Below, piece after piece: positions 14,269 to 17,516 of a stretch of 64,000 nt of DNA (position 1 is its first letter; the number at the start of each line of letters is the position of its first letter). Source of the stretch: Coriobacteriia bacterium (GTDB lineage Bacteria > Actinomycetota > Coriobacteriia > Anaerosomatales > PHET01); NCBI GenBank assembly GCA_034370385.1, contig JAXMKZ010000005.1, forward strand, positions 186,001 to 250,000, read 5' to 3'. The position numbers and the translations under genes were made by a program. The notes beneath the pieces were generated by a model. It was not told the DNA's origin. It did no database searches and saw only the letters and a program-made list of their open reading frames with translations.

Positions 14269-14325
14269 TGTGGATAGACGGCTCATCTCATCCACAGTAT
14301 CCACACCCTCTGTCAAGAATCCACA
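14269..14325. promoter_or_regulatory. Cluster of four DnaA-box-like sites in the dnaA-dnaN gap
   Basis: Sites with one or two differences from TTATCCACA: TGTGGATAG at 14269-14277 (minus orientation), TCATCCACA at 14288-14296, GTATCCACA at 14297-14305 and GAATCCACA at 14317-14325. In several actinobacteria the origin lies in this gap. Here it may be a second origin sub-region or a DnaA-responsive control of dnaN. Confidence 0.6.
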
Positions 14326-14390: not shown

Positions 14391-15770
14391 CTAACCCTTC
14401 TGTTTGACGATGTTTGTCAGTTGTTGAATCTGGTTGTACACGTCGCGTTGGGCGCTCATCAACTTCTGGATCTTGTCGTTGGCGTGCATGACGGTGGTGT
14501 GATCGCGCCCTCCGAACTCCTCTCCTATCTTAGGAAGAGACAGATCGGTGAGTTCACGGGCCAGGTACATAGCCACCTGTCGAGGATAGACGATTGGCTG
14601 GGATCGTTTGCTTCCAATCAGCTCAGAATCACTGATGTTGTAGAAGCGACAGGTTTCTCGCTTGATTGTGTTGATGGATATCGGCTGCTGTGACTGATCG
14701 GGAAACAGGTCACGCGTGACCTGTTCGGCCATCTTCACATCCACCACATCGCGTCGCGAGAGCTCACAGTAGGCCATGATCCGGTAGATGGCCCCCTCCA
14801 TCTCGCGGATGTTTGGCGTGGAGCGTTCAGCCACGTAGCCCAGTGCCTCATCTTCGAATACCACGCGCTGGGATTCGACGAACTGGCGAAGGATGGCCAA
14901 CCGGGTCTCATAGTTCGGAGGCTGGATGTCAGCCTCAAGGCCCATCGCGAACCTGCTTTGATAGCGCTCATCCATATTGAGGTCGCGGGGCGGTCTGTCG
15001 GATGCGAGAACGATGGCTTTTCCTCGCTGGCGCAACTCGTTGAAGGTGTGGAAGAACTGGTCCTGTGTACCCTGCTTCTTCTCAAGAAACTGAATGTCGT
15101 CGATCAGCAGAACGTCGACAGAACGATATTTCTGCCGAAACGTGTTGGTGGTCTTGGCGCTGATCGACTCGACGAAGTCGTTGATGAATTCATCAGACGT
15201 GACGAACATGACCTTCTTGTGAGGGAAGTTCAGGTTCACGTAGTTGCCGATGGCCTGCAGAAGATGCGTCTTCCCAAGCCCGGAGCCGCCCCACAGGAAC
15301 AGCGGGTTGTACTTGAGTCCCGGCTGCTCGGCCACGGCCATCGCGGCATTTCGAGCAAAGGCATTGGATTCGCCGACGACAAACGAATCGAAGGTGAACT
15401 TAGGATCGAACAACGGCCGCTCGCGATCCGCTTCTGATGTCTTGGTCGCAGGGGCCACCCTCTGCGGTTCGGGAGCAGGTGCCTCTACCGGAGCGGGTTC
15501 GGGTGTGGACGGAGCCGCCCCGGGGTCCACGACGATGCGGACCCGAAGATCGGTCCCTACCACCTGACGCAGGGCCGAGCTGAGGCGCTGCGCGTAGCGC
15601 TCTTCAAGCCACGACCGAGCGAACTCGTTTTGAACTCCCACGACGAATACGCCGTCATCAGTGAGGTCGAGAGGGACGGTGTGTTCGAACCATGTCGTGA
15701 AGCTCGGAGGATTGAGTTCTTCGCGGATGACCGCAAGAACGTCCTCCCAGATAGCCTTGATGTCCGGCAT
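14391..15770 (-). CDS. dnaA: Chromosomal replication initiator DnaA
   Basis: 459 residues. Domain I starts MPDIKAIWEDVLAVIREELN and contains the SFTTWFEH helix. A Pro/Ala/Glu-rich linker lies near residues 80-115. The AAA+ domain has Walker A GGSGLGKTH near 163-170, Walker B VLLIDDIQFLEKK near 222 and LASDRPPRDL (sensor 1). Domain IV contains EEFGGRDHTTVMHANDKI, the DnaA-box-binding signature, near residue 415. AGGGG lies 8 bases before the ATG. It sits 30 bp after the ATPase/HTH gene on the same strand, so these two are likely co-transcribed from the box-rich region. Confidence 0.97.
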   Translation of the reverse strand: MPDIKAIWEDVLAVIREELNPPSFTTWFEHTVPLDLTDDGVFVVGVQNEFARSWLEERYAQRLSSALRQVVGTDLRVRIVVDPGAAPSTPEPAPVEAPAPEPQRVAPATKTSEADRERPLFDPKFTFDSFVVGESNAFARNAAMAVAEQPGLKYNPLFLWGGSGLGKTHLLQAIGNYVNLNFPHKKVMFVTSDEFINDFVESISAKTTNTFRQKYRSVDVLLIDDIQFLEKKQGTQDQFFHTFNELRQRGKAIVLASDRPPRDLNMDERYQSRFAMGLEADIQPPNYETRLAILRQFVESQRVVFEDEALGYVAERSTPNIREMEGAIYRIMAYCELSRRDVVDVKMAEQVTRDLFPDQSQQPISINTIKRETCRFYNISDSELIGSKRSQPIVYPRQVAMYLARELTDLSLPKIGEEFGGRDHTTVMHANDKIQKLMSAQRDVYNQIQQLTNIVKQKG

Positions 15771-15800: not shown

Positions 15801-16673
15801 CTAAAGAGAGCTGGTGAGACTATCGAGATAGGACAGGCCGCGGTCGGTCAGCGTTCGCTTGCCGCCCTCTGCATCGATCAGGTCGAACTCCTCAAGCGAC
15901 GCAAGGTCGCGATAGGCTGTGGAGATCCCAATGCCCAGCTCCTTGGACACGAGGCTCGGACCGGCCGAACCACTCTCCATCACAAGGGCCAGCACCTGCT
16001 TCTGTCGCGTTGTGAGAAGGGGGCCGGCCACATACTCGGCTTCCGGTGCGCTCAGAAGCGAAGGGTCTGCCGATTGACCAGGATCAGACTCGGGGGCTTG
16101 CGGCAGATGGCCTGTGGACCGGAAGACCCCGATGGGTGGTTTGGAGTTGGAGCCCGAAGAGACGGTGACCACGGCGCCGCGACCGAGGTTGTCCTCGATG
16201 GTGAGGGCTCCTCCGCTGAAGCCAAGATAGTCTCGGACCAGCGGAAGACCCGAGCCCACCCCCCGGATATAGGGCTTCATGGATGAGTCGGCAGTGGTGA
16301 AGCCCGGCAGAACGGCGTGATCCTTGTCGGCGATTCCCGGGCCCCGATCGGCGAAGCGAATCGTGCGCCCCGAGTTCAGGATCGAGACCACGGGCTCCGA
16401 AAAGTCCGCATGGATGAAGTTCTCGGAAACCTCTCTGATGACGGAGTACGGGATGTCCCCGCCCTGGTCGCTCGCGAGACGGTGAACGGTGGACGCCAGG
16501 GCTTCGATGTACTCGGCCACGGGGCCGGGTCCGACGTCGACAACCCGAGGCGAAGAGCCGGGACCCTCATATACAGCTACGCGCGCGAGAGAGCAGACTG
16601 CGCCGTGGCCGGCAACGCCAGCCGAAGAGCGCCGACCGAGGCTTTCCATGCTTGATGAGTAGAACGCCTTCAT
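15801..16673 (-). CDS. GHKL ATPase domain fused to a C-terminal winged helix, upstream of dnaA
   Basis: About 290 residues with the start at ATG 16673, preceded closely by GGGGG; ATG 16649 is an alternative and the upstream TTG at 16763 is unlikely. Residues ~75-195 form a histidine-kinase/anti-sigma-type ATPase fold: N-box IREVSENFIHADF, G1 box FADRGPGIADK and G2 box RGVGSGLPLVRDYLGFSGG. No phosphoacceptor histidine domain or membrane helix is visible. After a Pro/Ser-rich linker the last ~70 residues (TTRQKQVLALVMESG, ELGIGISTAYRDLASLEE, LTDRGLSYLDSL) look like a winged-helix DNA-binding domain. It lies between dnaA (30 bp downstream) and the oriC candidate. An ATP- or partner-gated DNA-binding regulator of dnaA or the origin is inference. 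Confidence 0.8.
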   Translation of the reverse strand: MKAFYSSSMESLGRRSSAGVAGHGAVCSLARVAVYEGPGSSPRVVDVGPGPVAEYIEALASTVHRLASDQGGDIPYSVIREVSENFIHADFSEPVVSILNSGRTIRFADRGPGIADKDHAVLPGFTTADSSMKPYIRGVGSGLPLVRDYLGFSGGALTIEDNLGRGAVVTVSSGSNSKPPIGVFRSTGHLPQAPESDPGQSADPSLLSAPEAEYVAGPLLTTRQKQVLALVMESGSAGPSLVSKELGIGISTAYRDLASLEEFDLIDAEGGKRTLTDRGLSYLDSLTSSL

Positions 16674-16682
16674 TTCCCCCAG

Positions 16683-17250
16683 CTTTCCACAATGAGTCGG
16701 TATTCCACAGGCAAATCCACACGGTTGTGTTGCGGACCGGCCTGCTTCGAGATCAAGCGACAAGCCCTCTGAGCAGCACGTTCATCTGATGCGAACAGGT
16801 ATTCGACCTGCGCGACGTGGCGTTTCTTACCTTGTCCACAGAACTTTCCACACTGTGGAGAATGTGGGCAATCCAGCACCGAGCATGTCGGGCACGAACC
16901 CGCTGCTGACAGCGGGTGTATCCAGCACCAGAGCAGGTCGGGCTTTCTGCGGAGACTGTGGAAAGTGCCCTAGCCGGGCGGGCTTGCTGTGGAAACGCCC
17001 ACCAGGCGAAGCGCCTGCCAGAGGGTCGCGGAGGGATCCGAACCAAAGCGGCAGACCCGCCACGTTCCCGAGATGCAACACGTAGATGAAAAGCACTGAT
17101 AGAGAGCTTGTTTCAAGGTACGGCGCCAGGGGCTGAGCCCCCAGTAGACACGGCGGACTCTAGCACTGGCCCCGGAGACCCTCAATCATTCTTGAGAAGT
17201 TATCCACAGGTTCCACAAGCACGAGTCCTGCCTTTTCCACAGTGTCCACA
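16683..17250. other. oriC: Candidate chromosomal origin (oriC): DnaA-box array
   Basis: Roughly 700 bp without a gene, between the dnaA-side minus-strand block and the rpmH-side plus-strand block. DnaA-box-like sites: 16683-16691, 16701-16709, 16713-16721, 16832-16840, 16844-16852, 16855-16863 (reverse), 16957-16965 (reverse), 16988-16996 (reverse), 17200-17208 (perfect TTATCCACA), 17209-17217, 17233-17241 and 17242-17250. Many are TTTCCACA-like, suggesting a lineage-specific relaxed box. No obvious AT-rich unwinding element stands out. Gene direction diverges here, consistent with bidirectional replication. Confidence 0.8.
16871..16943. repeat. Direct repeat flanking a hairpin inside the oriC candidate
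   Basis: A 23-base unit beginning ATCCAGCACC and ending GTCGGGC occurs at 16871-16893 and again at 16920-16943, with one inserted base and one substitution. Between the copies lies an 8-bp perfect hairpin, ACCCGCTG at 16898-16905 with CAGCGGGT at 16910-16917 and a 4-base loop. No U-tract follows. Confidence 0.6.
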
Positions 17251-17304
17251 GATTGCGCTCCGAGTTATTGGCTGGCAGGAGCGCCCGATTCGGACTATTC
17301 ATCA

Positions 17305-17334
17305 TTGACGGGTGCGACAAGCCGCACATATAAT
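17305..17334 (+). promoter_or_regulatory. Promoter for rpmH-rnpA
   Basis: TTGACG at 17305-17310 and a perfect TATAAT at 17329-17334 with an 18-base spacer, 47 bases before the rpmH start codon. This is one of the best housekeeping-type promoter matches in the window. Confidence 0.8.
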
Positions 17335-17381
17335 CGTCGGGCTTTGCCCCGGGAACGACGGGGACAGCCCTAGGAGGAACA

Positions 17382-17516
17382 GTGAAGAGAACGTACCAGC
17401 CTAATGTTCGGAAGCGTGCGAAGACGCATGGCTTCCGTGCTCGCATGGCAACCCGCGGAGGGCGCGCCGTTCTGGCTGCCCGTCGCCGGAAGGGTCGCAA
17501 GGTTCTAAGCGCGTAG
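17382..17516 (+). CDS. rpmH: 50S ribosomal protein L34
   Basis: 44 residues starting [20 protein letters not shown] and ending KGRKVLSA, the near-invariant, highly basic L34 sequence. The start is GTG with TAGGAGG 7 bases upstream. It is the first gene of the plus-strand block to the right of the origin, 31 bp ahead of rnpA. Confidence 0.97.

Follow-up and report, generated by a model that had tools for sequence, protein, structure and literature searches.

A GHKL ATPase–winged helix gene conserved beside dnaA in Actinomycetota encodes a candidate replication regulator

Introduction

What is the role of a protein that joins an ATPase domain to a winged helix and is encoded directly before dnaA, at the edge of an origin-like region? 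The question is raised by a 64,000-nucleotide stretch of a Coriobacteriia bacterium genome (contig JAXMKZ010000005.1, positions 186,001 to 250,000), referred to below as the window. Control of DnaA synthesis and of origin firing is poorly known outside E. coli, Bacillus, and Caulobacter. A protein encoded before dnaA across most deep branches of the phylum, including the gut genera Collinsella, Olsenella, and Adlercreutzia, is a specific and testable candidate regulator. A search of papers accessible without subscription for GHKL proteins linked to dnaA or oriC found nothing on the ATPase protein.

Results

A GHKL domain is joined to a C-terminal winged helix

The ATPase gene occupies positions 15,801 to 16,673 of the window on the minus strand and encodes 290 amino acids between an ATG start and a TAG stop codon. 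Its GHKL ATP-binding domain (residues 27 to 176; positions 16,146 to 16,595, minus strand) was located by a profile match, residue conservation, an AlphaFold2 model, and a fold match. The HATPase_c profile (PF02518) matches residues 76 to 171 with 33.3 bits against a cutoff of 26.4 and was found in all 45 family members examined at E ≤ 0.01. The C-terminal winged helix (residues 219 to 290; positions 15,804 to 16,019, minus strand) was assigned from profiles, the model, and residue conservation; winged helix-turn-helix (wHTH) families match residues 219 to 287 with scores below their cutoffs. In the AlphaFold2 model, a confident GHKL domain is followed by a disordered linker (residues ~177 to 208) and a confident winged helix, and the GHKL domain modeled alone reached a pLDDT of 95.8 and a pTM of 0.90. 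Only ~26 to 50 residues precede the GHKL domain in the family. In Collinsella and Olsenella (L049 to L052), the linker exceeds 100 residues and is rich in Pro, Gln, Ala, and Gly.

The N, G1, and G2 boxes and the Bergerat fold that define the GHKL superfamily are all present, as judged from the profile, the box residues, and fold matches. Among 92 homologues, the ATP-site residues N85, H88, D109, G111, G113, G138, G142, and G166 are invariant. E81, at the general-base position of the E-x-x-x-N box, is Glu in 90 sequences and Gln in 2; both Gln sequences are from Adlercreutzia (L041 and L042). In the winged helix, R255 of the recognition helix STAYRDL and R273 of the wing are each Arg in 87 of 92 homologues. 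This pattern is what selection for nucleotide binding and DNA contact would be expected to leave. A preliminary description of this DNA, made from the letters alone, had reported intact N, G1, and G2 boxes, a fused winged helix, and the lack of a membrane segment. Residue invariance bears out the first of these claims and the model together with the sub-cutoff wHTH matches the second, while inspection by eye and the soluble two-domain model agree with the third.

Since the domain matches HATPase_c and, weakly, many histidine kinase families, the protein could be viewed as a fragment of a degenerate sensor histidine kinase. We regard this as very improbable. No HisKA family matched any of the 45 members at E ≤ 0.01, in agreement with the preliminary claim that a phosphoacceptor His is missing, and a C-terminal wHTH stands in place of the kinase core. 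The ATP site is strictly conserved and hence not degenerate. When folds similar to the GHKL domain alone were ranked by TM-score (a ranking in which kinases hold lower E-values than DIP2311), the top entry was DIP2311 of Corynebacterium diphtheriae (PDB 3lmm), with a TM-score of 0.77 to 0.79 and a root mean square deviation of 3.0 to 3.2 over ~160 columns. This is clearly above histidine kinases and branched-chain dehydrogenase kinases, which gave TM-scores of 0.45 to 0.58 with deviations mostly of 6 to 10.

The ATPase gene and dnaA stay together

In the window, dnaA (positions 14,391 to 15,770, minus strand) lies 30 bp downstream of the ATPase gene on the same strand. To see how far this arrangement extends, the neighborhoods of 98 distinct copies of the gene were examined, 92 with downstream sequence and 6 ending at a contig edge; 3 of these 6 are closed genomes numbered from dnaA. 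In 92 of the 92 loci with downstream sequence, the next gene is dnaA on the same strand, at a median distance of 35 bp, with overlap of the two genes in some. The conservation of the ATPase gene beside dnaA is therefore far beyond chance. No other gene constantly adjoins it. The usual divergent neighbors on its other side are rpmH, rnpA, yidC, and jag. In Adlercreutzia (L041 and L042), the divergent neighbor of the ATPase gene is instead dnaN-recF-gyrB, and rpmH is found on the far side of dnaA, with the ATPase-dnaA pair intact. The survival of the pair in a rearranged rpmH/dnaN order argues for a unit rather than a passive neighborhood. Together with the constant linkage and the short gap, it strongly supports the unit proposed in the preliminary description. 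Homologues scattered without linkage to dnaA, which would speak against such a unit, were looked for, and among the genomes examined none was relocated away from dnaA; the fusion stays beside dnaA in every locus with downstream sequence.

No terminator-like site was found between the two genes, and they are thus probably cotranscribed, as far as the sequence indicates. Pairwise distances of the ATPase protein and DnaA are correlated (r = 0.68; 0 of 500 permutations). Divergence rates are similar, with a mean identity of 42% for the ATPase protein and 46% for DnaA.

Because operon partners often interact, the protein could act by partner switching, its GHKL domain binding DnaA or a sigma or anti-sigma factor in an ATP/ADP-dependent manner while the winged helix makes mainly protein or nonspecific DNA contacts. 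The N-box has the form E-x-x-x-N, in contrast to the N-x-x-x-N box of most histidine kinases, and the SpoIIAB model is weakly matched by 17 of 92 family members. Both observations are in line with partner switching, and so is the example of NifL, which acts by binding NifA (PMC9866876). However, the recognition-helix and wing arginines kept in most homologues fit a DNA-binding role, and dnaA is the sole constantly adjacent gene that could encode a partner. Overall, we consider partner switching unlikely.

The gene is widespread and was lost repeatedly

Presence of the ATPase gene was scored with a profile built from 45 sequences at a threshold of E ≤ 1e-15. In the class Coriobacteriia, 282 of 300 genomes carry an orthologue (281 of the 299 good-quality ones); in a sample drawn from the phylum, 154 of 397 do. 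Named carriers are Coriobacteriia metagenome-assembled genomes, Collinsella, Olsenella, Adlercreutzia, and Candidatus Aquicultor. The window's own genome carries a single copy; its remaining matches are short and weak, as ordinary GHKL proteins would give.

The gene is absent from 18 class genomes. In 12 of them, dnaA likewise gave no match at E ≤ 1e-40, and in 1 the contig starts inside dnaA; these 13 absences are probably assembly gaps. The other five genomes (G003, G012, G046, G145, and G213) are real losses: dnaA is present, the sequence read upstream of it contains no ATPase homologue, and the rest of the genome gave no match at E ≤ 1e-15. With at least five losses within the class, the gene is not universally required.

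Among 20 genomes from the phylum without the ATPase gene, dnaA is present in 19, and the sequence read upstream of it contains no homologue. In a DnaA tree built with FastTree and rooted on two Bacillota, 17 absent genomes, including Nonomuraea, form one clade (support of 0.84) nested among carriers, and ~7 further absences are isolated. This topology suggests that the ATPase gene was present in the ancestor of the phylum and may have been lost once in the clade that holds Actinomycetes, with some seven further losses, the exact number being uncertain because the deep nodes are weakly supported. Its absence from the branch to which the usual model species belong would account for the lack of studies on it. 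Two dnaA regions from Bacillota were also inspected: Paenibacillus has rpmH-dnaA without the ATPase gene, and the Acetoanaerobium record begins at dnaA.

A phage, viral, or plasmid origin of the gene was considered and rejected: viral contigs and phages contained no relatives, and plasmids gave only unrelated histidine kinase–like matches. Three PLSDB "plasmids" carry a chromosomal dnaA region, namely, those of Acetoanaerobium (NZ_CP154629.1), Paenibacillus (NZ_CP054613.1), and Nonomuraea (NZ_LT559118.1) (L155, L156, and L157, respectively); these records are probably chromosomes or large chromosome pieces.

An origin-like region with a conserved predicted promoter lies upstream

The 708 bp of intergenic DNA that separate the ATPase gene from rpmH (positions 16,674 to 17,381) form an origin-like region. 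It contains 12 DnaA box–like 9-mers at positions 16,683 to 17,250, compared to 0.38 in shuffled sequences of 708 bp, and the sliding GC skew changes sign between ~12 and 18 kb of the window. Divergently oriented rpmH (positions 17,382 to 17,516, plus strand) bounds the region. A second, smaller group of four boxes is located in the gap between dnaA and dnaN (positions 14,269 to 14,325). The preliminary placement of the gene between dnaA and the DnaA boxes is therefore right for the main array but not for these four boxes.

A promoter for the ATPase-dnaA pair is predicted from order-level conservation at positions 17,157 to 17,185 on the minus strand (TTGAGG-17-TAGAGT), ~480 bp upstream of the ATG. 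Among 32 order-level relatives, 28 have a promoter of the form TTGTTG-N17/18-TAGAAT within the box region, ~460 bp ahead of the start codon; conserved upstream promoter sequence is thus shared in the order. A plain consensus promoter scan of the window did not report the site at 17,157 to 17,185. In relatives, this promoter and the predicted rpmH promoter (positions 17,305 to 17,334) have a common −10 box followed by a similar CG-rich stretch (TAGAATCGGC and TATAATCGTCGGGC). The CG-rich stretch after both −10 boxes could be a discriminator of the stringent-control type.

Downstream of the promoter, a conserved element (ACCTTGAAA..; positions 17,097 to 17,119, minus strand) is a candidate second −35 box or operator. 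This element, ACCTTGAAAAC, is strongly conserved in order-level relatives, usually ~40 bp downstream of the promoter (also in L121). We considered ACCTTGAAAAC as the specific operator of the ATPase protein and rejected it. Class genome G012, which has lost the ATPase gene, keeps both the promoter and ACCTTGAAAAC before dnaA, so the element is not specific to the ATPase protein, and an extra copy elsewhere in the region exceeded the 95% level of controls in only 4 of 32 cases. Possibly, ACCTTGAAAAC serves as an additional −35 box (TTGAAA) or is bound by a different factor. Expectation-maximization motif discovery, run after masking of the DnaA boxes on the intergenic regions of 32 order-level relatives, yielded promoter elements only. 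The conserved intergenic motifs are thus DnaA boxes, promoters, and ACCTTGAAAAC, and no operator for the ATPase protein was found among them.

The failure to find an operator near dnaA is what one would expect if the protein were a transcription factor with distant targets and its gene had merely kept its place in an old operon, without any regulatory tie to replication. Gene order around the origin is generally conserved, so old neighbors can persist, and dnaA is apparently intact after the five losses in the class. On the other hand, the pair has remained together in Adlercreutzia despite its changed order relative to rpmH and dnaN, and in the genomes examined the ATPase gene never occurs away from dnaA. 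Distant targets thus appear to us a rather improbable explanation.

Discussion

We favor the following scenario, to which we assign about an even chance: the protein would be an ATP/ADP-gated GHKL–winged helix regulator that binds DNA and controls the dnaA operon, the origin, or both, in feedback with dnaA. The ATP-gated control of dnaA or of origin firing suggested in the preliminary description is thus plausible. It would be a soluble, DIP2311-like regulator belonging to the ancestral actinobacterial dnaA operon. First, the GHKL domain would bind ATP (and ADP), and the nucleotide state would alter the conformation of a dimer, as in other GHKL proteins. There is a precedent for this step, since the GHKL domain of NifL controls a regulator without a kinase role (PMC9866876). 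The change in the dimer would then move its pair of C-terminal winged helices, tethered by flexible linkers, to new positions. Last, the winged helices would bind DNA within or close to the rpmH-dnaA region and so tune transcription of dnaA, opening of the origin, or both. Since the regulator would be made from the same transcription unit as DnaA, a feedback loop would arise that could tie the supply of the initiator to the cellular ATP/ADP state.

Nucleotide binding, dimerization, and DNA binding are ascribed to the ATPase protein by analogy, and it is the domain type that suggests DNA binding and its dependence on ATP. A conserved position in the operon does not prove that the operon is the target. 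A broader version of the proposal, in which the protein is a replication-control factor inherited from the actinobacterial ancestor, binds to either the origin or the dnaA promoter, couples initiation to the energy state, and was lost in the clade of model Actinomycetes, is more doubtful and is offered only tentatively. If the GHKL domain does serve as a nucleotide gate on the winged helix, this would give a function to the architecture.

Relation to known systems

The wHTH of 60 of 92 family members weakly matches Csa3. Like the protein studied here, the CARF-wHTH regulators Csa3/CasR combine an N-terminal ligand-binding domain with a C-terminal wHTH; however, their ligand domain is CARF rather than GHKL, and the window protein falls under the family cutoff. 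The gene was also considered as a CRISPR or defense regulator, and this was rejected since PADLOC and NCBIfam matches were weak and confined to the wHTH.

SpoIIAB/RsbW anti-sigma factors are GHKL proteins as well, small and soluble, and their N-box has the form E-x-x-x-N. In contrast to the ATPase protein, they have no wHTH, are linked to sigma factors, and are not linked to dnaA. The window protein scored 11.2 bits with the spIIAB model against a cutoff of 135, and the neighbors of its gene are dnaA and rpmH rather than a sigma factor gene.

The GHKL domain of NifL binds ATP and ADP, has no kinase activity, and gates the transcription factor NifA (PMC9866876). The likeness, a GHKL domain that serves regulation and not phosphotransfer (PMC9866876), is an analogy that concerns mechanism alone: NifL contains PAS and H domains, binds the activator NifA, and is devoid of a wHTH.

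The only close structural match found for the GHKL-wHTH architecture is DIP2311 (PF22168, DIP2311-like_C), a structural genomics entry that is also the top match by E-value of the full-length model in Foldseek. In DIP2311, as in the window protein, the winged helix comes after the GHKL domain, so the architecture already has a precedent. The identity between the two proteins is only 16 to 20%, and PDB chains of DIP2311 comprise 477 to 556 residues, compared to 290 here, with extra N-terminal sequence that is presumably an AlbA_2 domain. AlbA_2 and a HATPase_c_4-type GHKL domain are what we take to be the defining domains of the DIP2311-like (PF22168/COG2865-type) family. Neither the AlbA_2 nor the HATPase_c_4 profile matched any of the 45 family members at E ≤ 0.01, the profile of the PF22168 C-terminal domain matched 1 of 45, and no NCBIfam model covers the dnaA-linked GHKL-wHTH proteins as a family. 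The preliminary statement that no characterized family has this architecture at this position therefore needs to be narrowed: the domain order is that of DIP2311, while the family and its linkage to dnaA have no match in the libraries and papers searched. The dnaA-linked family differs from DIP2311 in being short, in escaping the AlbA_2 and HATPase_c_4 profiles, and in having a fixed genomic home.
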